Origin: Tethya wilhelma
Taxonomy: Eukaryota > Porifera > Demospongiae > Tethyida > Tethyidae
Length of the DNA: 64,000 bases
Direction of reading: 5' to 3'
Assembly (NCBI GenBank): GCA_964030475.1
Contig: CAXIPT010000015.1
Coordinates: 157,692-221,691 of the forward strand
The notes beneath the pieces were generated by a model. The model was given only the letters and a program-made list of their open reading frames with translations. It had not been told where the DNA came from and did no database searches. Both the position numbers and the translations under genes were made by a program. The stretch's first letter is position 1. Each line of letters starts with the position of its first letter. Positions 12,301 to 60,274 of the stretch are shown here, one piece after another.

Positions 12301-12686
12301 GGAATCTTATCAAATTAGAACAGCATCAGGATCACCAGTACATTATTGCATCATCATCTGTTGTACTCATAGCCAAAGCTTTGCACAAACATTCTCATTT
12401 AAAGTTTTTGGTGTTAAGAATTGTTGACGTTTTTCCTATCACTGATGACATTGTCTTATTGTTGGCTGAAATGCTAAAATATAATCGCTCACTAGAATGT
12501 TTGGAATTAGAATCAATCACTAAACATCAGCTCTCCATTCTTAATGATGCCCTCCAGTGCAACCACACACTAAAAAAACTGATAGTAACACTAATAATTA
12601 TTCATGCAAGACACCCAAAACAGCTTCAAAATACGACTCTTGATCTGGATCCTAGAATAACACATCACATGCAAATTTCCATATAG
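9376..12686 (+). CDS. NLR A: DEATH-NACHT-LRR innate-immune receptor
   Basis: Three exons, 9376-9599, 9986-10122 and 10228-12686, join in phase (2, then 1) to a 939-residue protein. Exons 1-2 encode a DEATH domain (YYFDSIPLENRFKLDKGLDY, MDQWEGNIAEEL, ALQKWQEKFG, YRALITAFVRAGRRDCA). Exon 3 encodes a NACHT ATPase with Walker A GAPGIGKST (about 231-239), Walker B LFILDGFDELP (about 304-314) and sensor-1-like VLVTSRPSAT, then helical NACHT-associated sequence and degenerate leucine-rich repeats (RELDINDNPAGDGGLVKL) to the stop. This is the architecture of bona fide NLRs reported from demosponges. It is predicted to be a cytosolic sensor that oligomerises on ligand binding and signals through DEATH-DEATH contacts. 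NLR B has the same three-exon structure and a closely similar sequence. No signal peptide or 2A leader was found in front of this copy. Confidence 0.93.
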
Positions 12687-17086: not shown

Positions 17087-17320
17087 TTTGTCAGTCACAA
17101 CAGCTATCGTAGCTACAGCCTTCTCTTTTTTTGTTTTCTCTGAGTTGGTAATGATCCTGTCCAAAACCTCGCTCTCCAACACTCCTTTAGCACATAACTC
17201 GCTGGAGAGGAGAAAGGGGTCCAGGACTTCAACTAGAACCTTTGAGAGGCTCTCTAGAGAGGCGGTAGCGGCTGCAGACTTCAGCTTAGTGTGCTGCTCA
17301 GACACTCCCAGCTCAGCCAT
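17087..17320 (-). CDS. Death-fold (CARD/DED-like) protein, 5' fragment, left copy
   Basis: Reads from ATG at 17320 leftwards through MAELGVSEQHTKLKS and LDRIITNSEKTKKEKAVA to the N at 17086, 78 codons identical in sequence to the start of the gene at 34595. Only this N-terminal part is present because the duplication arm ends here. It shares a promoter of about 160 bp with the EIF2B5 copy starting at 17480. Confidence 0.7.
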
Positions 17321-17479
17321 GTTGGCAGGATGCTGTCAGAGCCACACCCACGTCAGCTTGCAGTTTCTCGATCGCTGACTCAGCATTCCGGATATTCACG
17401 TACTCCCTTCGTATACTACATAGGCACATGTATATCTTATGAACTTTGCACCTGTATCCAAAAATCAGCTCAAGGAGCC
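17321..17479. promoter_or_regulatory. EIF2B5: Bidirectional promoter, left copy
   Basis: This 159-bp spacer separates the two divergent start codons. It is 16 bp longer than its counterpart at 34452-34594, partly because of a short insertion (about TCAAGGAGC) just before the EIF2B5 ATG. No TATA box was seen. Confidence 0.6.
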
Positions 17480-19600
17480 ATGAGCAAGAAAGACAAGAGC
17501 AAGAAAGGTGGCGAGAGCAAGTGGGACTCTGAAGATGTCATTCAGGCGGTGGTCATCGCAGACAGCTTCAACTTTCGTTTCTTGCCCATCACGATAGAGA
17601 AACCCAGAGCCTTGTTGCCTCTGGTAAACCGTCCTCTGATCGACTACACCGTGGAGTTCCTAGCTGTATCGGGGGTGGAAGAGATCTTTGTATTCTGCTG
17701 TGCCCACGCTGAAATGATCAAGGCTCATTTGGAAGCGTCACGATGGATGGAGCCCACCTCGCCTGTCAAGCTTCGCATCATCATTTCCGAAGATTGTCCA
17801 TCAGTTGGAGATGCTCTGAGAAACATCGATTCTCAAGCTTTGATTCGCTCTGATTTTGTTCTCGTATCTGGCGATCTAGTTTCCAACATGGAACTGAAGG
17901 AGGTGATTGAGATGCACAAGGAACTGAGAAAGAAGGACAAAATGACTGTCATGACGTGTGTCTACAAGAAGGCCAACCCCGATCACCCCACTCGTAGCTC
18001 GGAGGACGATATCCTCATCGTGACGAGCGCCAACGACAGACGCCTCCTTCACTGCGAAAAACCCAACAACAAGAAGAGACTCAACATCCCCGTGTCGATT
18101 TTCGAAGAGAATCCCGACATCGAAGTGCGCTACGACGTCCTAGATTGCCACGTCAGCATTTGTGCTCCGTCTGTCCCCCAGCTCTTCTCCGATAACTTTG
18201 ACTACCAGACCCGTCACCACTTCATCCGAGGGATCATAGTCAACGAGGAGATCATGGGGAACCACATCTACTCCCACATTATCTCTGACCAATACGCCGC
18301 TCGCGTTTCAAATCTTCAAACCTACGATGCCGTGAGTAAGGACGTGATCCATCGATGGGTGTATCCCCTCGTACCCGATAATGTGATCGGAGAGAGCTAC
18401 TCCTACAGTCGACGTAACGTCTACCTCGATAAGAATGTAGTGCTGGCGGCTGGTGCTGTTCTGCACGAGGATGTAGTCATCGGTAGGGACACAATGATTG
18501 GGGAAAACACACAGATTACTAATTCCTCCATCGGGCACAACTGCAAGATCGGTAAGGATGTTAGAATTGAAGGGTCCTACGTTTGGGATGGAGTGGAGAT
18601 TGAGAACAACTGTGTCATAGAGCAAGCTATTGTATGCAACGGAGCACTAGTGAAGAGGAATGTGACGCTGGAACCAGGCTCCATCCTCTCCTACCTGGTA
18701 AGAGTGGGTCCCGACCTCACCGTTCCAAGGGGGTGCCGACTCACGACCAAACACCAATCCACCACGGACACAGACGACTGGGGAGATGACTCTGATGAGG
18801 AGGAGGGGGAGGGGGAGGGGGAGGACACACCCTCGGGGAACAAGTCCCCTCTCAAAGAGCCAGAGTCCATGGCTAAAGATGTCGGGGAAGAAGGCTATGG
18901 GTTTGTGTGGCGGCCACCAACACCTGATGAAGATGATGAGTCGGAGAATGTCGTGAATGAGCAGTGGCCGTTTAAACATGATTCTTTCTCCTCCAGTGGA
19001 AGCAGTGCAGGCTCTTCCCGCGCCCAATCTATTGAACTGAATGAGGCAGACACAGACATCATCATGTTTTACAATGAAATTTTAGACAGTGTCCGATCGG
19101 GTGTTGCAGAACTTGTGCCGAATGAGAACACCATTTTGATGATCAATGCCTCGAAGCACGCCTACAACATCCCCATCCAAGACGTACCACCGGCTATAGT
19201 GAAAGCAATAATGGAAGGTCCTCTAAACAGCACCACGGGACAACCTTCAGAACTGCTCCTCTACGTCAAGAACGCAATCTCACATTTTGAAACACTCCTA
19301 CAGCACTACATTAAGTCAGAGAAGATCCAGACCAGCATCTTGCACACCCTCACAGAGTGTGCAACACAGCACCCCAATGTCCACACCATCTTCCCTAAGG
19401 TGGTGCTACACCTGTACAATGCCGACATCATTGAAGAGGAGCCCATCCTGGAGTGGTACACCCTCATGCAAGGCTCCACGTCACCATCGCAGAGCAAGAG
19501 ACAAGAACTGTTGAGCAGCATGAAGCCCGTCATCGAGTGGTTGGAGAATGCTGAGGAGGAGTCGTCTGAAGAGGAGGAGGACAGTACAGGAGAGAACTAG
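17480..19600 (+). CDS. EIF2B5: Translation initiation factor eIF2B subunit epsilon (left copy)
   Basis: Single-exon 706-residue protein; human eIF2B-epsilon is 721. eIF2B is the guanine-nucleotide exchange factor for eIF2, and epsilon is its catalytic subunit. Residues about 20-280 form the nucleotidyltransferase-like domain (AVVIADSFNFRFLPIT, PRALLPLVNRPLIDYT). Residues about 320-450 contain hexapeptide left-handed beta-helix repeats (VVIGRDTMIGENTQITNSS, IEGSYVWDGVEIENN). An acidic Glu/Asp linker follows, then the C-terminal W2/HEAT catalytic domain ending in EEEPILEWYTLM and an acid-aromatic tail EWLENAEEESSEEEED. I start at MSKKDKSKKGG because upstream in-frame codons lie in the shared promoter. 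Intronlessness of such a long conserved gene is notable. The copy at 32331-34451 is the same length and almost identical. Confidence 0.95.
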   Translation: MSKKDKSKKGGESKWDSEDVIQAVVIADSFNFRFLPITIEKPRALLPLVNRPLIDYTVEFLAVSGVEEIFVFCCAHAEMIKAHLEASRWMEPTSPVKLRIIISEDCPSVGDALRNIDSQALIRSDFVLVSGDLVSNMELKEVIEMHKELRKKDKMTVMTCVYKKANPDHPTRSSEDDILIVTSANDRRLLHCEKPNNKKRLNIPVSIFEENPDIEVRYDVLDCHVSICAPSVPQLFSDNFDYQTRHHFIRGIIVNEEIMGNHIYSHIISDQYAARVSNLQTYDAVSKDVIHRWVYPLVPDNVIGESYSYSRRNVYLDKNVVLAAGAVLHEDVVIGRDTMIGENTQITNSSIGHNCKIGKDVRIEGSYVWDGVEIENNCVIEQAIVCNGALVKRNVTLEPGSILSYLVRVGPDLTVPRGCRLTTKHQSTTDTDDWGDDSDEEEGEGEGEDTPSGNKSPLKEPESMAKDVGEEGYGFVWRPPTPDEDDESENVVNEQWPFKHDSFSSSGSSAGSSRAQSIELNEADTDIIMFYNEILDSVRSGVAELVPNENTILMINASKHAYNIPIQDVPPAIVKAIMEGPLNSTTGQPSELLLYVKNAISHFETLLQHYIKSEKIQTSILHTLTECATQHPNVHTIFPKVVLHLYNADIIEEEPILEWYTLMQGSTSPSQSKRQELLSSMKPVIEWLENAEEESSEEEEDSTGEN

Positions 19601-20136
19601 AGGTGGGCTCTCTTCGTAGTTGTCTACCTTGATTTTTTTGTCTCTTCACCATTTTGCTTTTTCTGTCTATTCTTTGATTTGTAAACTATATACCACTGCA
19701 CCTTTTTGTCTCTTAGCATAATATTTTGATTTCATGCATGCAGTCGATCTACATTCTTTGATTTGTATCTATTATAATAAATTATTATCCTACAAGTCTA
19801 ATGTATATAAATTCATCGGATTCGAAAATAACAATATTCTCTTTGGAGGGCACTACATCATTATGTAGCTACAGCGTTTACAGTATATTATGCTTTTTGC
19901 CTTTTCCCAAGCAGCAAATAGGTACCTGATCTGTTCATGCACGATCACTTATATGTACAATCATACAAATTAGCAACATTGTATCATTCAGTGAAGGTTC
20001 CACATAAATTGTGACTTAAAAAAAAGCACATGACCTTTTAAAGCAGAATACATAGTATTCATCTTGAAGAAGCAATTAAAACACAAATGACTGAAACATA
20101 AATTCATGGCTTTGTCAACAAGAGTGAGGGACAGAT
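19601..20136. other. EIF2B5 3' flank and converging LYSMD 3' end
   Basis: AT-rich 3' untranslated sequence. The homology with the right arm continues to 20117, 20 bp before the LYSMD3/4-like stop codon, so the duplication breakpoint lies inside the 3' UTR of the neighbouring gene. Confidence 0.6.
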
Positions 20137-30883: not shown

Positions 30884-32330
30884 TCAATCCCTGAAATCCC
30901 TCAAATCAATTAAGATTAATCCCCTCCAATAAATTACTCTATTAATGCACATCCTAATGTGCATACAACAACAATAGCTTATTGGCTTCAATGTGTACAT
31001 GCCATTGCTATGGGAACTGGGAAGCTGTGGCCATGCTCCATTCTATACTTTTCCTCTCCCGCCTCTCATTCCCCTCTCTTTAAGAGTGATGTCATTCTTA
31101 CTTAATGCCATATTATGGTGGTCTTCTTTCTGTGTATGTATGAGCAGTGATGGAGCTAGCATACTTTGAGAGAGATCCATTGCATGACACAAACAGGAAA
31201 AGGGAAAAAGGAAAGACATGGCCCTGACCCTTCCACCTCTAGCTGGCCCTTCTCCTCCATTCCTCCCCTGCACCTTTCCTTCCTGTAAAACACAAAATAA
31301 AAAATCACTTATCAAATTTCATGGTAGATGCGTGCATTTGTTTGTTTGTGTGTGCATGTCTGAAAGATGTAGTCACTCACCTGGATCATGCATACACTGG
31401 TTGTCTGTTGCATGATATAACTCGTGTGATATTTGCATTAGCTTTGTGACTTAAATGGCCACAGAGCTTCATGTTGTATTGTATCACTGGAACAAGTGCA
31501 CACATATCACACTGTGATTAAGCCATTGAATTCTCCAGTGACCTTTCTACTTCCTTTAGTGTAAGGCCTGAGATACACACTCCATCTCCAAATAGGGAGG
31601 CCACTCCTAAAATGGTCGACCATCTTTGTCACGTATGAGCCATAGCCTGAGGGGGTTTCAAGGCATCAGAACAGGAACATGTCCGTGTGCATGTGTGTGT
31701 GATCTCAAAGGGGTACTATTACAGTGCATGTGTGTGTGCTGCTCATTGTCATATTGTAATGGGAGGGATGAGTGAGCCGAGCTGTGTGTGTGCACACATG
31801 TAAACACTGCTTNTGACAAAGCCATGAATTTATGTTTCAGTCATTTGTGTTTTAATTGCTTCTTCAAGATGAATACTATGTATTCTGCTTTAAAAGGTCA
31901 TGTGCTTTTTTTTAAGTCACAATTTATGTGGAACCTTCACTGAATGATACAATGTTGCTAATTTGTATGATTGTACATATAAGTGATCGTGCATGAACAG
32001 ATCAGGTACCTATTTGCTGCTTGGGAAAAGGCAAAAAGCATAATATACTGTAAACGCTGTAGCTACATAATGATGTAGTGCCCTCCAAAGAGAATATTGT
32101 TATTTTCGAATCCGATGAATTTATATACATTAGACTTGTAGGATAATAATTTATTATAATAGATACAAATCAAAGAATGTAGATCGACTGCATGCATGAA
32201 ATCAAAATATTATGCTAAGAGACAAAAAGGTGCAGTGGTATATAGTTTACAAATCAAAGAATAGACAGAAAAAGCAAAATGGTGAAGAGACAAAAAAATC
32301 AAGGTAGACAACTACGAAGAGAGCCCACCT

Positions 32331-34451
32331 CTAGTTCTCTCCTGTACTGTCCTCCTCCTCTTCAGACGACTCCTCCTCAGCATTCTCCAACCACTCGATG
32401 ACGGGCTTCATGCTGCTCAACAGTTCTTGTCTCTTGCTCTGCGATGGTGACGTGGAGCCTTGCATGAGGGTGTACCACTCCAGGATGGGCTCCTCTTCAA
32501 TGATGTCGGCATTGTACAGGTGTAGCACCACCTTAGGGAAGATGGTGTGGACATTGGGGTGCTGTGTTGCACACTCTGTGAGGGTGTGCAAGATGCTGGT
32601 CTGGATCTTCTCTGACTTAATGTAGTGCTGTAGGAGTGTTTCAAAATGTGAGATTGCGTTCTTGACGTAGAGGAGCAGTTCTGAAGGTTGTCCCGTGGTG
32701 CTGTTTAGAGGACCTTCCATTATTGCTTTCACTATAGCCGGTGGTACGTCTTGGATGGGGATGTTGTAGGCGTGCTTCGAGGCATTGATCATCAAAATGG
32801 TGTTCTCATTCGGCACAAGTTCTGCAACACCCGATCGGACACTGTCTAAAATTTCATTGTAAAACATGATGATGTCTGTGTCTGCCTCATTCAGTTCAAT
32901 AGATTGGGCGCGGGAAGAGCCTGCACTGCTTCCACTGGAGGAGAAAGAATCATGTTTAAACGGCCACTGCTCATTCACGACATTCTCCGACTCATCATCT
33001 TCATCAGGTGTTGGTGGCCGCCACACAAACCCATAGCCTTCTTCCCCGACATCTTTAGCCATGGACTCTGGCTCTTTGAGAGGGGACTTGTTCCCCGAGG
33101 GTGTGTCCTCCCCCTCCCCCTCCCCCTCCTCCTCATCAGAGTCATCTCCCCAGTCGTCTGTGTCCGTGGTGGATTGGTGTTTGGTCGTGAGTCGGCACCC
33201 CCTTGGAACGGTGAGGTCGGGACCCACTCTTACCAGGTAGGAGAGGATGGAGCCTGGTTCCAGCGTCACATTCCTCTTCACTAGTGCTCCGTTGCATACA
33301 ATAGCTTGCTCTATGACACAGTTGTTCTCAATCTCCACTCCATCCCAAACGTAGGACCCTTCAATTCTAACATCCTTACCGATCTTGCAGTTGTGCCCGA
33401 TGGAGGAATTAGTAATCTGTGTGTTCTCCCCGATCACTGTGTCCCTACCAATGACCACATCCTCGTGCAGAACAGCACCGGCCGCCAGCACTACATTCTT
33501 ATCAAGGTAGACATTACGTCGACTGTAGGAGTAGCTCTCTCCGATCACATTATCGGGCACGAGGGGGTATACCCATCGATGGATCACGTCCTTACTCACG
33601 GCATCGTAGGTTTGAAGATTTGAAACACGAGCGGCGTACTGGTCAGAGATGATGTGCGAGTAGATGTGGTTCCCCATGATCTCCTCGTTGACTATGATCC
33701 CTCGGATGAAGTGGTGGCGGGTCTGGTAGTCAAAGTTATCGGAGAAGAGCTGGGGGACGGACGGAGCACAGATGCTGACGTGGCAATCTAGGACGTCGTA
33801 GCGCACTTCGATGTCGGGATTCTCTTCGAAAATTGACACGGGGATATTGAGTCTCTTCTTGTTGTTGGGTTTTTCGCAGTGAAGAAGGCGTCTGTCGTTG
33901 GCACTCGTCACGATGAGGATATCGTCCTCCGAGCTACGAGTGGGGTGATCGGGATTGGCCTTCTTGTAGACGCACGTCATGACGGTCATTTTGTCTTTCT
34001 TTCTCAGTTCCTTGTGCATCTCGATCACCTCCTTCAGTTCCATGTTGGAAACTAGATCGCCAGATACGAGAACGAAATCAGAGCGGATCAAAGCTTGAGA
34101 ATCAATGTTTCTCAGAGCATCTCCAACTGATGGACAATCTTCGGAAATGATGATGCGAAGCTTGACAGGCGAGGTGGGCTCCATCCATCGTGACGCTTCC
34201 AAATGAGCCTTTATCATTTCAGCGTGGGCACAGCAGAATACAAAGATCTCTTCCACCCCCGATACAGCTAGGAACTCCACGGTGTAGTCGATCAGAGGAC
34301 GGTTTACCAGAGGTAACAAGGCTCTGGGTTTCTCTATCGTGATGGGCAAGAAACGAAAGTTGAAGCTGTCTGCGATGACCACCGCCTGAATGACATCTTC
34401 AGAGTCCCACTTACTCTCGCCACCTTTCTTGCTCTTGTCTTTCTTGCTCAT
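32331..34451 (-). CDS. EIF2B5: Translation initiation factor eIF2B subunit epsilon (right copy)
   Basis: Intact 706-codon frame, same length and domain order as the copy at 17480-19600: nucleotidyltransferase-like domain, hexapeptide beta-helix repeats, acidic linker and W2 domain. The only protein difference I noticed is Val for Met in VVIGRDT(V/M)IGENT. There are several silent differences in the beta-helix section (about 33420-33630). The start is MSKKDKSKK at 34451, 143 bp from the divergent death-fold gene. Two intact near-identical copies imply either very recent duplication or the two alleles of one locus. Confidence 0.95.
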   Translation of the reverse strand: MSKKDKSKKGGESKWDSEDVIQAVVIADSFNFRFLPITIEKPRALLPLVNRPLIDYTVEFLAVSGVEEIFVFCCAHAEMIKAHLEASRWMEPTSPVKLRIIISEDCPSVGDALRNIDSQALIRSDFVLVSGDLVSNMELKEVIEMHKELRKKDKMTVMTCVYKKANPDHPTRSSEDDILIVTSANDRRLLHCEKPNNKKRLNIPVSIFEENPDIEVRYDVLDCHVSICAPSVPQLFSDNFDYQTRHHFIRGIIVNEEIMGNHIYSHIISDQYAARVSNLQTYDAVSKDVIHRWVYPLVPDNVIGESYSYSRRNVYLDKNVVLAAGAVLHEDVVIGRDTVIGENTQITNSSIGHNCKIGKDVRIEGSYVWDGVEIENNCVIEQAIVCNGALVKRNVTLEPGSILSYLVRVGPDLTVPRGCRLTTKHQSTTDTDDWGDDSDEEEGEGEGEDTPSGNKSPLKEPESMAKDVGEEGYGFVWRPPTPDEDDESENVVNEQWPFKHDSFSSSGSSAGSSRAQSIELNEADTDIIMFYNEILDSVRSGVAELVPNENTILMINASKHAYNIPIQDVPPAIVKAIMEGPLNSTTGQPSELLLYVKNAISHFETLLQHYIKSEKIQTSILHTLTECATQHPNVHTIFPKVVLHLYNADIIEEEPILEWYTLMQGSTSPSQSKRQELLSSMKPVIEWLENAEEESSEEEEDSTGEN

Positions 34452-34594
34452 GGCTGATTTTTGGATACAGGTGCAAAGTTCATACATGTGCCTATGTAGT
34501 ATACGAAGGGAGTACGTGAATATCCGGAATGCTGAGTCAGCGATCGAGAAACTGCAAGCTGACGTGGGTGTGGCTCTGACAGCATCCTGCCAAC
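34452..34594. promoter_or_regulatory. Bidirectional promoter, right copy
   Basis: 143 bp between the EIF2B5 (-) and death-fold gene (+) start codons, conserved in the left arm. A degenerate third copy of the EIF2B5 side occurs at 50170-50305. Confidence 0.65.
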
Positions 34595-35065
34595 ATGGCT
34601 GAGCTGGGAGTGTCTGAGCAGCACACTAAGCTGAAGTCTGCAGCCGCTACCGCCTCTCTAGAGAGCCTCTCAAAGGTTCTAGTTGAAGTCCTGGACCCCT
34701 TTCTCCTCTCCAGCGAGTTATGTGCTAAAGGAGTGTTGGAGAGCGAGGTTTTGGACAGGATCATTACCAACTCAGAGAAAACAAAAAAAGAGAAGGCTGT
34801 AGCTACGATAGCTGTTGTGACTGACAAAGTAACCTCCGAGCCAGGAGTTCTAGGGAGATTGTGTGAAGTGCTGTGTGGAGATCCAGCAACAAAAGATATT
34901 GGCACATCACTCAAAAGTAAGCAATTTTTTTACTGACTGCCTCTCCCCAGCCAGTGTTGTAGTTGTGTTTTATGTTTCAGGTCATTGATTTGTTTAATAG
35001 GATGCTATGGAGACACTCTAGTGGAGAAATTACGGCTTAAATATTCATCTGAAGATCTGATTAAG
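34595..35065 (+). CDS. Death-fold (CARD/DED-like) protein, 5' exons
   Basis: Exon 1 is 34595-34916 and exon 2 is 35001-35065 (phase 1, then 0). Exon 1 encodes about 107 residues of amphipathic helices: LSKVLVEVLDPFLLSSELC, GVLESEVLDRIITNSEKTKK, VTSEPGVLGRLCEVLCGDPA. This pattern resembles the CARD-like six-helix modules common in sponge signalling proteins, in which the first four lines of helices are Leu-rich and a 'D-P-A-T-K' turn precedes the last helix. Exon 2 continues CYGDTLVEKLRLKYSSEDLI. The gene then runs into a (CA)n tract and an N gap (35255-35263), so the rest is missing. Assignment to the death-fold superfamily is an inference from helix pattern. Together with the NLRs it may belong to apoptosis or immune signalling. 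Confidence 0.6.
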
Positions 35066-35918: not shown

Positions 35919-38900
35919 TCAGAACCGAGAAGGGCGAGCATTAGCATATGGTGAATATCTCGATTGGGTTCGGCGCTGAGATTCTTTGCCCTTGATACTG
36001 TCAAATGTGTGTGTTTTGGGTTGTGCTGGAGAGAAGGACTCTGTAGCAGCTGATAACTTAGAACTGAATATCTTTGAAGAGTAAGGAGCTATACTTTCAC
36101 TCAATTCACTGATGCTGTCTCGAATCTCTCGATCGTAATCTTCAATGTCACTTCCTGTTGATATAGTTATAACAATGACAAAATGAATAGTGTATAATAA
36201 TATTATGATGTTGTATTAATTGGGTGCATATGTTCATGAATGAGGCTTGTGTATGGTGTAACTTTTAGCTGTTAATATATGGATGCCTCATCATTATTAT
36301 CTTCTAATTAGCAAGTTTACTCACTAATTCCTACTTTTATTTTAATTCACTTACTTTCTACTTTAACCTGAATGAAGCCTTCTACCATATTTGCCTTTCT
36401 TGTGTCATTAATGAAACGTTCCGCGTTAGGTGCAAGTGATCTCAATTCAATAGGAAGAACTAGTTTCAGCAATGAAGAATTTTTACTTAAACACTTTGTC
36501 AGCTCCAAAATACCTTCATCAGTTATTATATTCGGCAATAAAACACTGTCTCTATAATGGCAATTGTACAAGATAAGCACTTGTAGCGCTTTATTTTCTG
36601 GCAACAATCCAGCAAGGCAACTAACTTCTGAGTCAGATAAATTGCAGTTTGAAATGTGTAGCTGTTTCAACCCATCATTACGTTCAAGTGAATGTGCAAA
36701 TTCCTGAAATCCGCACCTTTCTCCTTTATTCATAGAATCATGTAAAACTGTCATTGATAAATCATTGTAGCTAATGTCTAATATCTCGAGGGTCCTGTTG
36801 AAAGCTAGAGCTTCTCCGAGTGGTTTCAGACCTTTTTCAGACAAATTGCATCCATACAGGTACAAACACTTCAGTGATCTATTTATTCTCAATTGGTGTG
36901 AAATGCACTCAACTCCTTTATCCTCCACACCATGGTTGTCACCAAAATCTATGGTGTGAATACAATCAAAACGCATTAGTTGGCAAAATCCTTGTACACC
37001 CTGGAGCTGAATATCATTACAGCATACAATAATTTTCAACCCTTGTTTCTTGAGGCTGTTTTCTAAATTGTTGACAAGATATCTACAGCCTTGATCACTT
37101 ATTTTGCAATTTTTCAAATTGACTCTGTATCTCTCCAAGGTGATATGAGATAAAACATAGCAAAGACAAATACAGTCTGATGGAAGAAGTGTGATATTGC
37201 CCAAATTTAGTCCGTTCTGAAGGTTGTTTAAAAACTGCTTGCATAAGCTTTCATTCTGAGCTTCATAGAGACAGCGGATCAAAGAAAGTAAGTACATTTT
37301 GTCTTCATCTTTTACATTCCATCGACCATACTGTTCAGCTATTCTAGTGATGGCACTATTGAAACCAGAGTGAGAAAGATGAGAAATAGCTGCATAGAAC
37401 TGGAATACTTGGCTATATCGAGTATTATTGAAATGTGCTTCATCCGTGTTCCTAAAATGATCTTCAAATATTGAAACTTGTTCCTCAACTGGAAGTTTCT
37501 TTGCTATGTGCCAAGCTGCTAGAAATTCTTGAATTGAGAGGTGAACAAAGCTATAGTGTAACTCTGATGTTGGCATTGGTGCATCAATCCTTACTCTAAA
37601 ACTTTGTATTCCCTCAAGTAGACCTAGTGTTTCAGAATTTGGGCTAGGTAGGCTGAATATCACTTTGTCTTCTAGAGTACATTTATACGCAAGAGCACAT
37701 ATCTCATTAAATTGTTTGTGAATGTCTTCTGGTAGTTCATCTGGTGTTGCAATCCTCATTATACTTCTGTCGGGTTTTTTGGTACAGATATATGAACATA
37801 TTAGCTTCACATAAATGCCGAATTGAGATGCTGGAAACCCTTCTTCATCATCATACAAGTGAGCTAGGACAATGGCATTTAGTGGAAGATGGCAGCTGCT
37901 TGCAACAGCTGGAATTGCTTCAATCTTGTTTATTAGATCTTCAGCTGATGTATCATCTTGCAAGAAATATGTAAAAAAATCTTTTAGTTCTGTTGGTTTA
38001 AACCCCAAAACTTCAACTACCCTTGTATTTCTCAACTGAGCAATTGGTAGTATGGTATATGAGGCTATTGGACGTGATGTTATGATAATTGCACTCTGAT
38101 GCAGTCCGTTTATTGAAGAATAGCTAGGATTCAATAACTCCTGTAGAAGTGGGTTTTTTCGATGCTGTGGTGGAAGTTCATCCCATCCATCAAGTATAAA
38201 CAATACGTGTTTGCAATTTTCAGACAACAAATTTTGAGCTATTTGTTTTGCATTGAAACTTTCATTTTTTTCTGCTAAGTCAAATAAAACAAGTTGTATT
38301 AAGTCGTCCAGGTTTTGTGCTCTCTGTACTTCAGGACGTCGAAGTTGGAGAAGAATTGTGATCTCAAAATCTACAAAAAGTTTTCCTTTTCCCCATTGCT
38401 CACAAATGTGTGTGCATAATGTACTCTTTCCACTTCCAGGTGCTCCCTCAAGCAGTACTAGCTGACGTCTGTTTGGAGGTAATTCGTCAAAGAGATCTTG
38501 GAGTTCAATTGGCCGTTTCTTTCGAAAGATGTCATCTGCTTTCCCAGTAATAGTTGTCTGCACATATTGATCTAAATTACCTATTCTAATTTTTTTGCCA
38601 GTACTTTCGACTAATGCCAAGTTAAATGTTTTGAATGCTGGCCAATATTTTTCTTCAATACTGATTCTCTGGAAGGCTGAGGCATTTAAATCCTTATAGT
38701 GATCCCTCAGCTGCTTAGCAAAGTGAGACACTATAAAATTAATATGAGAGCAGATTCATTTTGATGTTTTTCAGCACTAGTTTTTACTGTATAGCGGGTA
38801 AATTTGGCGGGCTTAAAATTTGGCGAATTCATATTTTAGCGATTAGGCCCTGGCACATAATAATATTGCTCGGCAATATGGGAAATAATGCTTAAGCAAG

Positions 38901-41900
38901 CAAGAAATATAGGTAACTTCAATGGGAAATTTCGGCAACAATCTTAATTTAAACTTCGCAAAAAAACTTCAAGGCGCAAGCTAATTGAACATGTTTTCTC
39001 GATTTTAAACAACAGTTTCAACACTAGACAGGAATCTACACTTGATGATTATATACAACTATCTGTCATGATGCAATATAACAATCGAAAAAAATAATTA
39101 TGTTTTTATTGTTAATTTTGATGTACTGTAACAATATTATTTTTTGTGTTTGTAACTTGCAATAAAATTTTGGTAGATATGTTGGGAAATATTGGGAGAG
39201 ATTGTGGGAAATAAAGAAAAGAAATTTAGGCAAAATTTTGAGCAATTTGTGCCAGGGCCTATTGGCGATTTTAAATTTGGCGATTTAATTCTGCACACTG
39301 CATCGTTTATATGTATGTGCGTGCGTTTGGCAATTTTAACTTGGCGATTTGTAGAAAAATTCACCAATTCGCCAAATTTACCCGCTGTACAGTACTTTAT
39401 GTTTTTAAGTATTATGTGTATCTCAATTATAATAGCTGATAGTATCACGTTATTAAGTATAATATGGGAATCAGTATACTAGCTTAGCTGACGTGTACAA
39501 CCATTATTTTGTCAAGGGATTTATGTTTGTACTTTTATGTCAATTTCATCAAAATAAAATTCTGAGTATAATATTATAGGTCTAAAAAATTTTTCCAGCA
39601 ACTCAGCTACGTATTATAGTGCAGGTTAACTGTACACTTAGACAATTGATGTGCAATAGGAAAAGCACAGTAGCCTTCAATCAAAGGTACAGTGTGGTGA
39701 CCATTTGACCTTTCAAGTTCAACTCTATACCTCCACCATTCATGTAATGAACTTATAACTTTTAAATTAGCCTTATTGGCCTTGCAAAATTGACATTGTA
39801 TACAGTTTGCCAGCCTATATCAATTTATAATGTCAACCTGGGCATTCTCTATACAAGTATTGTGTAAGTTAGTACTAACTTACCACTTTGCTGAATAGAT
39901 GGCCCATTGTTGTATTTACTCTCCAATTGCTTGGCTAAATTTTTTTCGTTAACAGTAGATGCCCTCAAAGCAGAAAAAATAGAGCCCCAGCCTGTATCTT
40001 CTTCATTTTTTAACCAGAAATTTAATGTTTCACATAACAGTCTGTGAGTCTCAGGACCAAATTGTTCTTCGATCATGTTTAGATCAGAAACACTAATGTT
40101 TAGATGGATTCCTATTTGATGCCACTTGTGACTTATAGAACCTAGCTCTTGCATCAATGACTTTATATCTAGAAAATGGGGAGGAGGATGTGCATTTATA
40201 ACTGTTGTGAACGGTACAATGTCTGTTGTGCATTTTTTGTGATTTTTAATTTGGATAAAATTAATGGAAAGAGTTTGGAGTTTTAAATCATGCACTTCCC
40301 AAAGTTATTGGACGTATGGATTTGAAGTTACACCCAAAAGTGTGAATGTACAAAGGTCATATATTTTACAGTTTCCCAACAATCAAGGCATCAATTTTGT
40401 ACCACTCACAATATCATACGTACGTTAGTACGTATAGTAGGAATGGGCCGACTGTCCCATAGACACAATACAAAATATTTATCGCCATAAAAATCTAACA
40501 ACACAAAGTAGAGGCTTCAAACTTGCTCAGAGGCTCTCCTTTACAGAAAACCAACTGCATGGAAGGCTTAAACTTTGCCGAAACTTTTCTGATCACTCGT
40601 AGAGAGAGCGCTTGCGAGAAGCCACACTAGTGCAATTTTGTTCTCCTAACCGTCCTTCTAATTAACTGACTTACTTGAAAACGATTTCCAGAGAACCAGA
40701 AAGTGTTGAGCCAACTTTGACGCCACAAAGTAAGTTCTTTTCTTTGGTAGTACGTTCCTTTATACTCGTTTTCATCGTAAATAGGCCTAAACAAAAACTA
40801 GAAAGCTTTGAAACTTAGTGTATAAATTCATGTGTTACAATGCAGCCATCTTTGTAGGTAGAGTTCAAAGGTCATTATCCACGTGGCATTATGCGCATGC
40901 GCACTAGCCTCTAGCATAATAGCTGAGACTCAAGCTTTTTGTAGGGACTAACCAGTCTCTGATAGTCTCCACACTGTAGTGTTGAAAAAAGTGAATGAAC
41001 AAGTAGTAAAAATTTTGAAAAAATAAGTAGTGTAGGAATGGGCAGTGCGGTAAAAAGTATTGGAACAAGGTAGGGTCTCAGTTTCGGCACATGACTACTT
41101 CATTTTTATGCCCAACTCTTGGCCAGCAGGTTATATACCTGTCTATTATAGTTTACTCCATTGCTTAGCCAAATATAATTATTATAATAGTGAACCATGC
41201 AATGCAATAATTATGATAAGCTATGGTACTATAATTATAGTGTACAGATTATTTGCAAGACGACACTGAAAAATCCATATGAGGGTTAAAAAATAAAAAT
41301 GAAGTATAGTCATGTGCCGAAACTGAGACCCTACCTTGTTCCAATACTTTTTACCGCACTGCCCATTCCTACACTACTTATTTTTTCAAAATTTTTACTA
41401 CTTGTACTATTAGTTGTAACTAATATCCCCCACCCCTGTGATATAATTATCAGGTCATTTACTAGGTGTAGGCTCTACAATCTATGGTCCATGGGGACAA
41501 ATTGAGGGATTGTAGTATAATTATATGTGGAGTCATAGAAGGAGAGAAAAAAATCCCTTGATATAATTTTAAAGGAACTGTGTCACTATATAAGTTACTA
41601 AAAATAAAATGCGTGACTTTTATGACATTCTATGACCATTTGTGACATTTTTTGTTTTGTTATTTAATTTCTAGTGTGATCTGGGTACTACGTCCGGATA
41701 CTATAGCTCTGTGTACATACGTATATTATGCGTTTGTCAACAAAAAAACGTTACATAATATAACATATTTAAGCAAGAATGCATGCTTTTACCCACCTAT
41801 ATGGACACAGGATTTTTTGAATGTTTACTACTGTAATAATATTGTTTAGGCCTGAAACCAAAAACAAATACAGCTAAACAACACCATACTTGTATCTAGC

Positions 41901-42097
41901 ATACCCAAACCTGCAGATCAGTGCTAAAATGTGTCCATATTGTGCTGTCCTCATAATTAAGTATAGCTTAGCTAGATACAGATATAGTGGAAGCTATTTT
42001 TGTACAAACCTAGATCCAGAATAGGACCAGGATTTATCTCCACATCTCCAGACAGTAGTAAGAGAAGTCCTACTAAAGCAGTGGACATCCTTAGCAT
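35919..42097 (-). CDS. NLR C: 2A leader-DEATH-NACHT-LRR receptor
   Basis: Four exons (42010-42097, 39884-40168, 36355-38730, 35919-36154) all join in phase 1 to a 994-residue protein. Exon 1 starts MLRMSTALVGLLLLLS, a signal-peptide-like hydrophobic leader, and continues GDVEINPGP, matching the 2A consensus D(V/I)ExNPGP in which the ribosome skips the bond between the final Gly and Pro. Then ILDL splices to the DEATH domain (IKSLMQELGSISHKWHQIG, WGSIFSALRA, VNEKNLAKQLESKY). Exon 3 holds NACHT with Walker A GAPGSGKST (about 219-227), Walker B VLFILDGWDELP and IIITSRPIAS, then leucine-rich repeats (SLKCLYLYGCNLSEKGLKPL, LEILDISYNDLS). Exon 4 is a Ser-rich tail. The NACHT-LRR exon also has an in-frame TGA overlapping its GTAAGT donor, so an unspliced form would end six bases further on. 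Expected products: leader-NLR fusion or cytosolic NLR beginning with Pro. Confidence 0.88.
38785..39394. mobile_element. Palindromic MITE in the NLR C intron
   Basis: Ends TACTGTATAGCGGGTAAATT and complement ending CCCGCTGTACAGTA. The arms contain GGCGAATT/GCCAAATT blocks and the GCCCTGGCACA/TGTGCCAGGGCC pair. 610 bp, larger than other members of the TACCGTATAGC family. Confidence 0.75.
40999..41404. mobile_element. Foldback element, ACAAGTAGTAAAAATT family (copy 2)
   Basis: Same arms and order as 35311-35702, with the shared CCAGTCTCTGATAGTCTCCA flank at about 40952. It lies in the long first coding intron of NLR C. Confidence 0.85.
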
Positions 42098-42186
42098 GGA
42101 AAAGAAAGGTACTTTGAAACCAGCAACTTGGTATCCATAACTGTTACATGCTTTTGTTTTCCGCTCCTTATGCAAGGTTCCATCTG
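42098..42186 (-). promoter_or_regulatory. 5' leader of NLR C exon 1 with an overlapping upstream ORF
   Basis: The exon probably begins at 42186 after the acceptor TGTATTTTAG. An upstream ATG at 42184 opens a short frame (MEPCIRSGKQKH...) that terminates with TAA overlapping the main ATG region at 42097. This would be expected to modulate initiation on the leader ATG. Confidence 0.4.
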
Positions 42187-45608: not shown

Positions 45609-46753
45609 CTATATGTGCCTACCATTGCAGCAGCTTTTGTTTATTCCAAGCCTTAGGGTAACATAAAAGCTGTTGCTTGCTGAATCGTACAGAATCTCAT
45701 TTTTTTGGTCACTCTTCAACCAGTATAAATCCAGATGGCTTAACCTCTGCATAAGTGTCCAACTGTTAGTTGGCTTGAGTTCTTCAATACCAACCACAAC
45801 AACAAGTAAAATGATAGTCGTGTATAGAATAGTGGTAAGGAATAAAATTGCAGGATATAGTGTACTCTGCCAGGTGTTGAAGACTTCAAGTGTAGGTTCA
45901 AAACCTGATAATCAGAATTACACAATAAGTATATAATATTATAGTGAACTGGCAATGATTTATTCTTCAAATCGCCAAATTAAAAATTGTCAAACAGTTT
46001 TATATATGGCACATGTGCACATACAATGCATGTCTCACACAATTCTCTATTTTCAGTAACAGCTAGCTAGAGACACATCCATATTCTGTGACTAATGTAA
46101 CTGACAGTGTGTAGAGCCCTGGTCAAGTAGCTCTAGAAATGATAGACTATATATATACACATGCATAATTATGACAGATCTAGACTCACTATTGACAACC
46201 GTGTTTACAAATTCACTGAATTTTATTACACTTCTGGTCAAGTGACAGTATATGATTGTACCATTCTCCTTTATAGTACCACCATTAAGCTAATCAATTG
46301 CATGCTACAGTAACCAAAGCATGCTACCACTCACTGGTTACTATAATATACTCCTATACATATGGCAAGATCATATCAACAACCCTTATAGATGTGTGTG
46401 GTTCAATTTTTTTTTTAATTCAACAGTTGAACAGAAAGGAAAAGCTTACCCATGGATCCCATATTTGTTGTTATCCGATTGGCAATGCCCTGATTTCTGC
46501 TTGCAAAACTTGTGTACATGTACTTCGTGAGCATTGTGGTTACTCCAATTGTAAACTTGTAGGCATTGTAAAGCAGTGGCATACAGAGTATTAGCAAAGC
46601 AACATTGTGCCCTTTCCAACCACAAGGAGGAAGTAGCAAATGATGTTTTCTGAAGGGTCCATTGGTGGAATAACATACTCTGCTGTAGTTTGTATGTGTA
46701 TATGGTCTGCAGACATTTAGCAGACCACGCCAATTTTCATTCCCTATTGGCAT
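45609..46753 (-). CDS. Unrecognised small membrane protein, two exons
   Basis: Exon 46450-46753 (start MPIGNENWRGLLNVCRPYT) and exon 45609-45904 join in phase 1 across GTAAGC...TTATCAG, giving about 199 residues. There are two clear hydrophobic segments: VALLILCMPLLYNAYKFTIGV in exon 1 and LYPAILFLTTILYTTIILLV in exon 2. The N-terminal part has several cysteines; the C-terminal 70 residues are soluble (WTLMQRLSHLDLYWLKSD). No family was recognised. The matching phase and good splice sites argue it is real. It sits beside the transposon cluster and is 1.2 kb upstream of the first HAUS1 copy on the other strand. The true 5' end may lie further upstream. Confidence 0.45.
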
Positions 46754-50493: not shown

Positions 50494-53400
50494 TTATCTT
50501 GAAGTTATTGTTAGGCGTGGATCTAATGATTCCTGATCCATTTCCTGATCAAAGCCCTGGAGAGAAGTTTGTATATTAAGTGTTTTTAGTGTGCAATTAG
50601 ATTGAAGAGCACTGTTGATCATGACCAAATCTTCCTTCAAGTTAGTAAATTTACAATGCCATAACATTGTTTCCAGCGTTTGGTTTGTGCGGAGCAGTTC
50701 AGCCAACGATGATGCACTATCACTAATATTGATACAATCATTTGGTCTGTATACATAATATGATGAAATGTACAAGTCTTTCAAACAACAGTTCTTGCAC
50801 AGAGCTAAAGCGATTAAACTTGAAAATTTGGAAGATGTACTATATAGTTTCAGTGTGGTCAGATTTTTGTTTTCTTCCAACATTTTAACAGCTTGGTCTA
50901 CTTCAGTATCTATTGAAGAAAATATCACACATTCCAGTGAAGATGGTGAAAGTACAATCTTTAACATTGTCTCTGTATTTTCAGGTGACATGTTCCGGCC
51001 ATCAATAACCAACAACTTCAGAGTGGATGATGGAGATACCAAACAAGATAAAGCGCTAATTTCATCACGACTAATATTTGGGGGAGACAGCTCAAGTCCT
51101 TCTAAGTGCTTAAGATGAGACAAAGTATGGAGGAGCTTCACGAACACAATATTGCCAGGGTTGATACAAATACTAAAGTTCTTCAAGTTTGTCATGAGTG
51201 GGATGACTTCAATAAACTCAATAAAAGTAGTTAAATTTGGGCTTTCTTGGAGTCCACCAATTGCAAGAAAAGTCAGGTTTTTGTTTTCTTCCAGCAATGG
51301 AACAGCTTGGAAATTCCAATTCAATGCAACACTATCCAGTGATGATGGTGAGAGTACAGTCTTCAACAACATATCAACAGTTTTAAAAGGCATTTCTTCG
51401 TCACCAATTATTAGTAGCTTCAAACAAGAAGATAGAGCTATCAATGAAGACAAAGCTTCAATGTCAGGAAGACCGATATTATTGTCACACATGGCGAGAG
51501 CTTTGAAATTCTTGAGACAAAATAAACTTTGAAGAATTTTCACCAGTCCACCATTACCTGCTGGGTTGACGTTGATATCAAGCTCCTCCAAGTTGGTCAT
51601 GAGAGGGATGAGTTCAGCTAGTTGATTGAAAGCTGTTAAATTTAGACCACACCGTTTTAGCTTCATATAAAGGATGTTTGGATGTGCCATTTTAGGTTGG
51701 CTCTGATTTGGAGAATGTAGGCCATGTTTAAACATCTCAACCAATGTACCACCAAGAGACTCATTGCCGTGCATATTCAATCTCCACATACACCTACTGT
51801 TGGCCACACAATAACCAAGAGCATAGCAATCAAATGCACTAAAATCACCTCTACCACGAAAAGACACCTCAGCCTCTCCTAATACTGAGTCACAATCAGC
51901 TTTCTCTTGTGCTTCATACAAGCATTGAGTCAAGAATGGTGCAAGTCTCTCACCATCATATGCAGTTCCTTTTTTTGATTTAATCACTTCCCATCCAATT
52001 CCATGGAATCCAGTCAGACCAGCTACAAACCTCCAAACCACATTCCAATCATAATGTTTGTTAAAGACACTCTGCTGATCAGCTGGTGAAAGTTGAGAGA
52101 TGTAAAAAGCAGCTAAAAATTCCTGTAAAGTAAGATGCAAGAAGCTATGAGAGATTGCTGTTTTTCTTCCCATGTACAGTTCTGTTGGGGAATTCATGAA
52201 ACCAAAATGGACAAATCCACTGGGAAGCTTGTGAAAAATCACCTCATCTCTTTCTAAACCATCAAAAGCTAGTTTGGCCAGTGAATTAAATGGCTCCAGA
52301 AGCTGTGGTGGAAGGTTTTCTAAACTATCAGAAAGTTGATCCACTAATGTGTCATCCTCACCTAGGTGTCGCTGCAGTAGTGTCAAGCTCATCTCAGTGT
52401 AGAGTTGTGTCATGGTTTGAGGAATGGGCCTATTAGCTGTTCTATTGTGGCTGTAGATTTCTGTTGTTATGGCACAATTCAATGGAATGTACATCAAACT
52501 TCTGATAGCTGGATGGGTGGATATGTAGACCAAGAAGTCAGATAGCACATCAGGTTGGGAAGCAAAGAAGGCTCTAGCATACTGCTCGATGTGCTTTTGA
52601 GTAAAGCCTATCACTTCTATTTGCTTGTGTATCTGAGGGCGAGCTACCTTAAGAAGGTCTGCAGTAGCAGAAGGACGACTAGTAACCAGCACTGTGCAAT
52701 GGGATAGGTAGGTACCAGAAATAAGTCTAACAAAAATGGAATGCTTTCGAAGGGAAGCAGGAAGTTCATCAAACCCATCAAGTACAAACAGTACACCCTC
52801 CCCCTCACGAGCTTCAATCTCAGCTACTAGAGCTTCTCTCATTCCTCTATTGTCATGGTAACAAAAGTCGTTCAATCTTTGAGCTTCTTGTACCTTGTTC
52901 TCTCGTAAGCGAAGAAGAATCACAAGCTCGTATTCATTCAAAGCATCATTTCCTTGTGTGCCCCACCTCTTACAAAGCTCCCCAACACATGTGCTCTTCC
53001 CAACACCAGGGGCACCATGCATGTATACACATTTCAATATCTGCTGACCTTCTACCGGCTTCATCACCTCCTCCAGTTTAATGGGCTCTTTTTTTTGGAG
53101 GATTTCATCAATGTGTCCATGAAGTGTAGCTTTTGTGAACTCATCTGCTTCTGGGTGACTGATTCGATCACTCTTTACGAGAGCAAGGTTGATAAATTCA
53201 CTGCATGTCAAGTTTGGGAACTTATCTGATGACACAAGGGCACTTTTGTACACTCCTTTGAGGTATGTGGCATAGCGCTGGATAGGGTTGAGGGGTACAC
53301 GTTGGATTGTAGGTTGAGAACCTGAATTATAATAATGTATTATTAAATTGAAGGTAACTAATACAATGCTTTTTGTGTACTGATTTATCTAGCTCACCAA

Positions 53401-58778: not shown

Positions 58779-59065
58779 TCTGAGTACAGTGTGTGTGGGT
58801 GCGGCTGCGCATGCGCAATATTTATTGGGGCATAATTGCCGAATATAAAACCACGAAAGAGTTGAATTCTTCACTTCACAAACTGTTTGAAAGCTTGCGA
58901 GGAAAATATATCTTTCTTGTAACTGGTGAAAGCATAAAGTTTGTTGAAGATATAGGTCTAACTGTCCTGTGAAAAGTACGTCACAATATTCAATAGGCTT
59001 TCAGAATTTTCTCACTGTCAGAGTGTCGAATTTGATCAGAGATTTTATAGATCGTGATCATCATC

Positions 59066-60274
59066 ATGAAAGTGGCTATCGTTGTGGCGTTTGCATTGGT
59101 AGTCGTACCACTATGTTGCTGCATAGACAATTTCGGAATGATCGTGAGTCAAGAGAACAAAACAGAACCGGGGAATCAAAATCGCAGTGCTGGATTTGAA
59201 GACGAACCAGTATACACGGATGGCTTGCAAGATTCAGACGATTACGAAGAAGAATTCAAGCCTCTTGTTTGCATACTCAATCTCACAAGTCTCCTCTTCC
59301 AGCTACAAGCCCTCGGCGGTGATTGTCTTGGCCATGTGGAATTCGACGATTGTTGCCAGCCCAAGTTCCTGCAGCTAACTTATTCAGGAGTCTATCCATT
59401 GCGACACAATAGAATGGCCTTTTGCGACATGGAGAGTGATGGTGGTGGTTGGCTGGTGATCCAGAGGCGAATGAGAACCAACGACAACCGTAGACCGAGA
59501 TCGTTCAACAAGACGTGGGCCCAGTACAGAAGAGGGTTCGGAGCTGTTGATAAGAATTCTTTTTGGCTGGGTCTCGATGCCATGCATACTCTTACGTCTG
59601 TGCCAAGTGGAACAGAACTCATGGTAGTGTTGGAGCGGTTCAATGGCACAAAGGAGTACGTCTATTACGATACTTTCCACGTAGATAGCGAACAGCATTT
59701 GTACAAAGCCACAATCAGTGGCTACAATAGAAAACTAAGTACTGTTGTGGACTCCTTGTTCAGCATAAACGGAGCGCCATTCAGCACGAAGGACCGAAAC
59801 AACTACGGACTTATCCAGTACGGACGTCGTATAAATTGTGCTGTGCGCCACGGTGGAGGATGGTGGTATAAGGCTCTTGCTGGGTGTTCCAATGCTCCTC
59901 TCAATCAAAACTACCAAGGATCAGTTAATGTCAGCATCCCTGGGATTCCGTATGCACAGGCGTATTATCCTGATTTACCAATACCAATCTATCAGGGTGT
60001 TGAAGACTTCTTTGCAGCAGTTGAGATGAAAATCCGTCCGAAAACATGGTACTGTGGAAAATATCTGAACTATGATCCTCAAATTGTTCAAAACAGATTC
60101 AAGCTACGAAACTATCCCACAGATCTGGACAAAGATGATGACGAACAGACTCAAGGTGAAGAGCGTACCAGCACGACACCTCAAACACCATCTACCACAG
60201 CAAGCGAGACTGAGAAACCTGAAAAGAAACGTAGCATTGATTCTGAAGCTGAAGAGAACGTTGTTGAGAAGTGA
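59066..60274 (+). CDS. Secreted fibrinogen-related (FReD) protein
   Basis: Single-exon 402-residue protein starting at MKVAIVVAFALVVVPLCCC, a clear signal peptide. An acidic N-terminal segment (about 25-75) precedes the fibrinogen C-terminal-like domain (about 85-330). Motifs: CDMESDGGGWLVIQRR (hallmark of FReDs, in place of the usual 'C-D-M-x-T-x-G-G-G-W'), YRRGFGAVDKNSFWLGLDAM, NYGLIQYGRRINCA, GGGWWYKALAGCSNAPLNQN and VEMKIRP. The C-terminal 70 residues are Thr/Pro/Glu-rich and hydrophilic (STTPQTPSTTASETEKPEKK), probably a mucin-like tail. FReDs (ficolins, angiopoietin-like, tachylectins) bind carbohydrate or acetyl groups outside the cell; a lectin or immune role is plausible here. No collagen-like region was seen. 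Confidence 0.9.
   Translation: MKVAIVVAFALVVVPLCCCIDNFGMIVSQENKTEPGNQNRSAGFEDEPVYTDGLQDSDDYEEEFKPLVCILNLTSLLFQLQALGGDCLGHVEFDDCCQPKFLQLTYSGVYPLRHNRMAFCDMESDGGGWLVIQRRMRTNDNRRPRSFNKTWAQYRRGFGAVDKNSFWLGLDAMHTLTSVPSGTELMVVLERFNGTKEYVYYDTFHVDSEQHLYKATISGYNRKLSTVVDSLFSINGAPFSTKDRNNYGLIQYGRRINCAVRHGGGWWYKALAGCSNAPLNQNYQGSVNVSIPGIPYAQAYYPDLPIPIYQGVEDFFAAVEMKIRPKTWYCGKYLNYDPQIVQNRFKLRNYPTDLDKDDDEQTQGEERTSTTPQTPSTTASETEKPEKKRSIDSEAEENVVEK

Follow-up and report, generated by a model that had tools for sequence, protein, structure and literature searches.

2A-like sequences on NLR proteins, and the dual targeting that they allow, are already known from one echinoderm. According to the available text of Roulston et al. 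(2016; PMC4981915), sequences of this type occur in the N-terminal region of 85 of 241 sea-urchin NLR proteins (SpNLR2A), and 14 of 87 NCBI entries carry a 2A-like sequence of 26 aa at the N-terminus itself. The same source reports about 80% skipping for a tested SpNLR2A and a mainly Golgi location for its non-skipping mutant. In viruses, the StopGo core is given as (D/G/C/N)(V/I)ExNPGP in the part of PMC12846837 that was consulted, where LLLLSG-like hexapeptides form a described class and a related L-rich upstream motif was active in vitro. Here, we describe an NLR gene of the sponge Tethya wilhelma that carries a 2A motif, and the distribution of this motif in the genome.

The 2A motif and gene model of NLR C

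The gene, called NLR C below, lies on the minus strand of the window, i.e. the whole stretch of 64,000 nucleotides that was analysed. Its features are:

46450..46753, minus strand: predicted exon 1 (head), ATG at 46753, MPIGNENWRGLLNVC...TNMGSM, 101 codons, phase-1 donor GTAAGC preceded by G
42010..42183, minus strand: 2A exon, probably exon 2, phase 1-1, with tandem acceptor TTTTAGCAG
42047..42085, minus strand: hydrophobic stretch STALVGLLLLLSG; this LLLLSG type has been described ahead of viral StopGo cores
42023..42046, minus strand: 2A/StopGo core octapeptide DVEINPGP, with the expected break between G and the final P
42004..42009, minus strand: 5' splice site GTTTGT, weak, phase 1, 13 nt past NPGP
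39884..40168, minus strand: Death-domain exon, phase 1-1 (Pfam Death and four-exon profile)
36347..38730, minus strand: NACHT-LRR exon including the stop codon (Pfam NACHT and LRR_6)

Positions 42097-42010 of the minus strand read MLRMSTALVGLLLLLSGDVEINPGPILDL and are followed by the donor GTTTGT in phase 1. The core (42046-42023) follows the pattern D(V/I)ExNPGP and is preceded by LLLLLSG, so that LLLLSG stands directly before the D. The exact consensus match that a first-pass annotation had reported is thus present, and its coordinates and phase-1 donor proved right on the minus strand. The 23-nt motif has a single copy in the window and was absent from all 100 shuffles; a motif scan of the window found no second 2A. 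On the rough scale of this analysis the donor is poor (score 3.4), and the acceptor of the exon, in phase 1 and 137 nt before the D codon, scores only 2.1; its tandem arrangement gives an alternative exon start at 42186. Two in-frame ATGs within the exon (42097 and 42088) could start a short form of the protein.

The exon with the terminal sequence LLLLLSGDVEINPGPILDL and a phase-1 donor lies 1.8 kb upstream of the Death exon. The latter, preceded by TTTTCTAG, has its phase-1 start at 40168; its end at 39884 is followed by GTAAGT, again in phase 1, and it is joined in the same phase to the NACHT-LRR exon (38730-36347). Splicing from the ATG at 42097 gives 918 aa without a stop, and the statement of the first-pass annotation that the 2A is in frame with DEATH-NACHT-LRR holds through phase-1 junctions at every step. 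Pfam recognizes NACHT (72.6 bits, cut-off 26.7) and LRR_6 (34.4 bits, cut-off 23.4), while the Death exon reaches 21.6 bits (E 2.4e-4), 1 bit below the cut-off of 22.6. A profile of four Death exons from the genome, NLR C included, matches the death domains of CRADD and FADD in the PDB (best E 4.9e-4 and 7.8e-4); the NLR C exon alone gives E 0.25 at best. With a NACHT domain, LRRs and an N-terminal Death domain, NLR C is of the Death-NACHT-LRR type. A protein search with the whole 918-aa model returned 969 matches, and no outside relative was found at E 0.01 for residues 1-122.

The window contains several other genes. NLR A (10215-12686, plus strand) and NLR B (50494-53388, minus strand) are inverted paralogs with 73% DNA identity over 1.8 kb. 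An inverted duplicate (17087-20117 on the plus strand and 31814-34828 on the minus strand, 98.4% identical over about 3.0 kb) contains two ORFs, each a single exon, with lengths of 780 and 764 aa, which we take to resemble eIF2B epsilon. A protein with a fibrinogen C-terminal domain (59051-60274, plus strand; Pfam 137 bits) has an N-terminus that looks hydrophobic by eye.

2A motifs in the genome

The genome analysed here comprises 124.6 Mb, and its COX1 reads through 8 TGA codons. The strict pattern DVExNPGP occurs 65 times in it, against 0 for the reversed pattern, and a wider motif yields 89 sites, against 1. The flanks of all 89 sites were inspected, and merging three near-flank duplicates left 86 distinct sites. 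Six of them are retrotransposon-like by eye, in that the 2A is followed by a Cys-rich or PHD-like part (L012, L027, L061, L068, L088 and L093), and four (L084-L087) form a tandem array with a long ORF. The remaining 76, as we sorted them, are classed as leaders on host-type exons; among them are a few poor cases, e.g. L059 and L060, which lack a hydrophobic leader. Within 24 nt of the 2A, the best-scoring donor is in phase 1 in 71 of these 76 leaders, in phase 2 in two and in phase 0 in one, and two leaders have no donor above the threshold within that distance.

Some of these sites have features of their own. L084-L087 (about 183-206 kb on contig C13 of assembly G000) are four tandem genes in which DVETNPGP lies inside the long ORF and is not followed by a good donor. 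In the same region, L100 has a frame of 752 aa that begins just before the 2A and ends, by eye, in a hydrophobic part; its single Pfam match is sub-threshold. L027 shows, besides its PHD-like part, an endonuclease-like sequence by eye. The leaders L015, L018, L019, L021-L024, L034 and L075 form a family whose core begins with N (NVERNPGP); the leader exons of this family lack an in-frame Met and probably need an upstream exon.

Pairing of 2A with Death exons

A genome search with the NLR C Death exon yielded 291 candidates, 150 of them as scored matches. Among the matches listed, at least 35 of the 89 2A sites are followed on the same strand by a Death match no more than 1 kb away, and the other three quadrants are empty at this range. 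For distances up to 5 kb the figure is at least 41 of 89 among the listed matches, and the controls there gave 2 upstream on the same strand and 2 and 0 on the other strand. Viewed from the Death exons, a 2A lies within 3 kb upstream of 18 of the 19 best matches, the one of NLR C included, and of only 17 of the 120 matches of ranks 31-150, a low number that is expected for other Death genes.

Similar results were obtained from reading frames of 3-kb loci around 27 leader sites, two pairs of which share one locus. A profile of NLR C, L098 and L099, made without the tested loci, placed a Death domain within about 1.4 kb downstream of 18 of the 27 sites. With one sequence each from L020, L023 and L028 added, all three belonging to tested loci, the number became 24 of 27; the controls gave 0, 0 and 1 of 27 with either profile. 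Pfam Death was over its cut-off in L099, L018 and L019 and below it in NLR C, L022, L028 and L035. At E 0.01, no Pfam Death match was found in the Death exons of L098 and L101, whose assignment rests on similarity to the NLR C exon and on the in-house profile.

The gene types behind these Death exons differ. L098 continues into a long ankyrin array and L097 into TPR repeats, both with a C-terminus that is hydrophobic by eye, and L020 has a stretch that looks GTPase-like by eye and has no Pfam match. The presence of 2A before Death exons of several gene types indicates that it is not NLR-specific. The first-pass annotation had described an NLR leader and suggested looking for NPGP motifs at other NLRs of the genome. 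A 2A was indeed found within 12 kb upstream of 7 of 102 scored NACHT places, three of the seven being on the NLR C contig. The joining of the 2A to DEATH-NACHT-LRR that it described stands; what does not is the implied restriction to NLRs. From these distances and strands, 2A in this genome appears tied to Death exons of several gene types and not only to those of NLRs.

A proposed head-2A-Death cassette

We consider it rather likely that NLR C belongs to a family of genes with a head-2A-Death cassette, that its translation begins at 46753 and that StopGo splits the head from a soluble receptor. The order of the cassette, with all exons in phase 1, would be head exon, 2A exon, Death exon and a variable sensor, which in NLR C is NACHT-LRR. 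A ribosome starting at 46753 would make a head of about 154 aa ending in LLLLLSGDVEINPG; the nascent LLLLLSGDVEINPG would stall the ribosome and the head would be freed without a stop codon. Synthesis would resume at the next proline to give a separate, soluble Death-NACHT-LRR receptor of about 894 aa. One mRNA would then probably yield a small membrane-type protein, since the head with its two hydrophobic segments is probably membrane-bound, and a separate receptor, of which the head might, as a guess, be a membrane partner or a decoy. Where skipping fails, a fusion of 1048-1049 aa would arise, which the hydrophobic segments would tether to the membrane or send to the ER; a membrane-bound unskipped product is proposed by analogy with the sea-urchin non-skipping mutant. 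The motif, its conservation, the exon phases, the association with head and Death exons across the genome and the uninterrupted spliced frame are seen in the sequence itself; expression, splicing, StopGo activity, membrane targeting and a regulatory use of the split are inferred. Against the cassette in NLR C itself speak its weak donor (3.4) and acceptor (2.1) and an intron 1 of about 4.3 kb.

Within this model, StopGo could be essentially complete, so that the 2A would serve to make two proteins per mRNA and no regulated fusion would exist. This sub-case is plausible, and we lean slightly away from it. The core is canonical and its context is of the LLLLSG type, and in the consulted part of PMC12846837 in-vitro activities from about 92.7% to nearly 100% are given for four types of upstream motif, among them the L-rich motif 6. 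On the other hand, NLR C has L where, in the available text on SpNLR2A6, an R-to-A change lowered activity (PMC4981915; the position is inferred from the numbering).

The predicted head exon and the probable start of translation

The first-pass annotation took the 2A exon for exon 1 and the peptide before the motif for a hydrophobic leader. Several observations lead to a different picture. The candidate exon at 46753-46450 opens with MPIGNENWRG and closes at a good phase-1 donor. It was picked by eye among 14 ATG-to-phase-1-donor candidates on the basis of its M-P-x(3)-E-x-W-R head, which resembles the heads M-(P)...-WR described below; motif scans did not single it out. As a check that does not depend on position, a genome search with this exon gave 31 non-self relatives, individually weak (E 5.7e-5 to 0.78), which read MPISAEQWRATTG...WKGY...LLCxPLLYRVYS. 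Twenty-two of the 31 lie at most 5 kb upstream of a 2A on the same strand, with one on the wrong side and none on the opposite strand; over a range of 12 kb, 24 are upstream of a 2A, versus 6 on the wrong side and 5 on the other strand. For seven relatives, the site list contains no 2A on the same strand in the 12 kb downstream. In 0.8-2.0 kb read at three head relatives (L105-L107) and at L103, which has a head of another class, no 2A-like core was found; at these loci the 2A may have been lost or may be located further away. Counted from the motif, a head lies within 5 kb upstream of 23 of the 89 2A sites, NLR C included, and at least 11 of the 89, among the Death matches listed and again with NLR C, combine such a head with a Death exon within 5 kb downstream. 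The case for the head exon thus appears strong in its co-location with 2A and weak in the single matches.

Eleven of the 76 leaders have a head of the form M-(P)...-WR-x-x-I(G/A) in the upstream sequence read, with one in the reverse-strand control; this stricter pattern was not found for NLR C. A composite 30-residue head of the other class (MPLWSVQEWRARIG...) gave seven matches, six of them beside listed 2A sites, several of the matched loci being its own source.

The leaders themselves also bear on the start. In 16 of the 76, mostly of the NVERNPGP group (among the 16 are L018, L019, L021-L024, L034 and L075), there is no in-frame Met at least 14 residues before the core, so that an upstream start or a non-AUG start is needed. 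An alignment of nine leaders of this group shows a conserved acceptor. L015, L018, L019 and L034 have a further conserved stretch upstream of the leader, which in the last three contains an exon that has an ATG and a phase-1 donor. Of 74 sites, 50, NLR C included, have their best acceptor upstream of the leader in phase 1, and 12 have it in each of the other phases; among acceptors scoring 4 or more, 15 of 23 are in phase 1. In NLR C, the four-exon model that starts at 46753 is open over 1048 or 1049 aa, depending on which AG of the tandem acceptor is used. Its only 19-residue windows above 1.6 on the Kyte-Doolittle scale stand before the 2A, at about 51-69, which is barely above this value, and 127-148.

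The phase-1 acceptor together with the homology and co-location of the head favour 46753 over 42097 as the start of NLR C. Translation probably begins at 46753, the 2A exon being most likely an internal phase 1-1 exon 2, and the peptide before the 2A is probably about 154 aa long with two hydrophobic segments, instead of a 25-aa N-terminal signal sequence; the terms 'exon 1' and 'leader' of the first-pass annotation are probably wrong. The rival reading would start at 42097, with the 25-aa MLRMSTALVGLLLLLSGDVEINPGP acting as a signal sequence plus 2A and the receptor split between cytosol and secretory pathway. Its length is close to that of the 26-aa SpNLR2As, one of which skipped at about 80% and led to the Golgi when skipping was blocked (PMC4981915, available text). 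The in-frame ATGs at 42097 and 42088 would suit it, and some leaders of the genome seem to have a short form only. It is at odds with the phase-1 acceptor upstream of 50 of 74 leaders including that of NLR C, with the genome-wide co-location of the head exon and with the 16 leaders that lack a suitable Met, and we regard it as unlikely for NLR C. The parallel that the first-pass annotation drew with the sea urchin stands as far as an NLR with a 2A is concerned, while the short N-terminal signal-sequence form is the less likely one here. The dual targeting through failed skipping that the annotation proposed may still apply.

A head is not universal in the genome, as suggested by six leaders (L013, L014, L026 and L072-L074) in which an in-frame stop lies within 46 codons upstream and the best acceptor is not in phase 1. 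L014 and L074 have a NACHT downstream; the in-frame stop upstream lies 27 and 40 codons ahead of the core, respectively, and an in-frame Met 22 and 18 codons ahead of it. A short-leader form like that of the sea urchin may occur in such other genes.

When the head-plus-2A exon of L056 was used as a query, six public ORFs of 35 candidates matched (E 3.4e-34 to 7.3e-3). Full coverage of the query, at 42-62% identity, is seen in three, the other three cover 36-55% of it, and all six have DIETNPGP near their end. Two pairs are near-identical, P0122 with P0123 and, over their overlap, P0125 with P0126, so that the six ORFs are not independent cases. None is identical to the copies inspected in the genome, which suggests that another species or assembly may be their source.

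Selection on NPGP

The conservation of NPGP was examined with a search blind to it, using the pattern LLLxGD(V/I/M)E over the whole genome. This pattern occurs at 54 places, versus 4 in the reversed control. NPGP is present at 53 of the 54, all of them in the NPGP site list, and the sole exception (L104) is an unrelated long ORF. The conservation of D-V-E is built into the pattern, and the blind evidence covers NPGP. The blind criterion holds for 51 of the 76 leaders, of which 47 are distinct and were placed on a tree. There, the NPGP codons show 25 changes at third positions and 0 at positions 1 and 2, and the neighbouring x codon shows 2 and 6 changes at positions 1 and 2. Since the leaders are paralogs, partly in tandem clusters, these counts are parsimony events on one tree. 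On such counts, NPGP in the leader family appears clearly to be under strong purifying selection.

As StopGo activity is predicted here from sequence, NPGP could in principle be kept for a reason other than skipping, for instance as part of a membrane anchor or as a protein-binding tail; NPGP is invariant while x varies, as in StopGo cores, which makes this very improbable. That the motif is a chance occurrence or a retrotransposon remnant beside an NLR is barely credible, for all the 2A-bearing retrotransposon-like ORFs at 6 of the 86 distinct sites, and is rejected, as far as sequence allows, by the 89 sites versus 1, the genome-wide conservation of NPGP, the donor phases and the pairing with Death and head exons. 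After the 2A of NLR C there is no endonuclease or reverse transcriptase; a donor follows at 13 nt and then come the Death and NACHT-LRR exons.

Comparison with known systems

Our literature search found no paper on 2A in sponge immune genes; a work by Rao et al. (Cell Reports, 2025), which reportedly deals with eukaryotic and viral 2A sequences, may list sponge cases. As far as this search shows, a sponge genome with dozens of host 2A exons, the tie to Death across gene types, the phase-1 cassette and the head exon are new. With 89 sites, 76 of them on host-type exons and many before Death domains of several gene types, the picture of 2A is changed, and the question arises why an animal immune system would split receptors from a hydrophobic head by virus-like recoding. 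We suggest, tentatively and with some doubt, that StopGo is a standard, inherited element of gene architecture in one sponge lineage, where dozens of innate-immune genes would share an exchangeable head-2A-Death cassette, yielding a small membrane protein with two segments together with a soluble Death-domain receptor, and receptors would become membrane-tethered on skipping failure, perhaps tuned by stress or infection. If so, StopGo would be a common tool of a cellular immune system and not a rarity outside viruses.

NLR C shares its DEATH-NACHT-LRR architecture, and its membership of a large family, with the sponge NLRD genes, e.g. those of Dysidea avara (PMC12909245); the main text of that paper, as far as consulted, does not contain the terms '2A-like' and 'signal peptide'. 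With viral StopGo, as presented in the consulted part of PMC12846837, the sponge motifs have in common the core, the LLLLSG-type hexapeptide and, in the NVERNPGP family, N at the first position. In contrast to viral StopGo, they reside in host genes with introns and not in viral polyproteins. APE-type non-LTR retrotransposons reportedly also carry 2A, in a study attributed to Odon et al. (2013). Two ORFs of the sponge genome, L012 and L027, resemble these elements in having a 2A followed by a PHD-like part, and it is possible that such 2As are donors or relatives of the host ones. Unlike that of the retrotransposons, the 2A of NLR C is followed by a splice donor and a Death exon.

The closest system is SpNLR2A, in which, according to the available text of PMC4981915 (Roulston et al., 2016), Death-NACHT-LRR proteins likewise have, in their N-terminal region, a hydrophobic stretch followed by a 2A core, and the sea-urchin genome, like that of the sponge, also has 2A retrotransposons. 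If the 2A-Death-NACHT combination is common to sponges and echinoderms, it would be either very old or repeatedly acquired. Unlike in SpNLR2A, the sponge 2A probably stands on an internal phase 1-1 exon after a head exon of about 100 aa, and its carriers include Death-ankyrin and Death-TPR genes besides NLRs.
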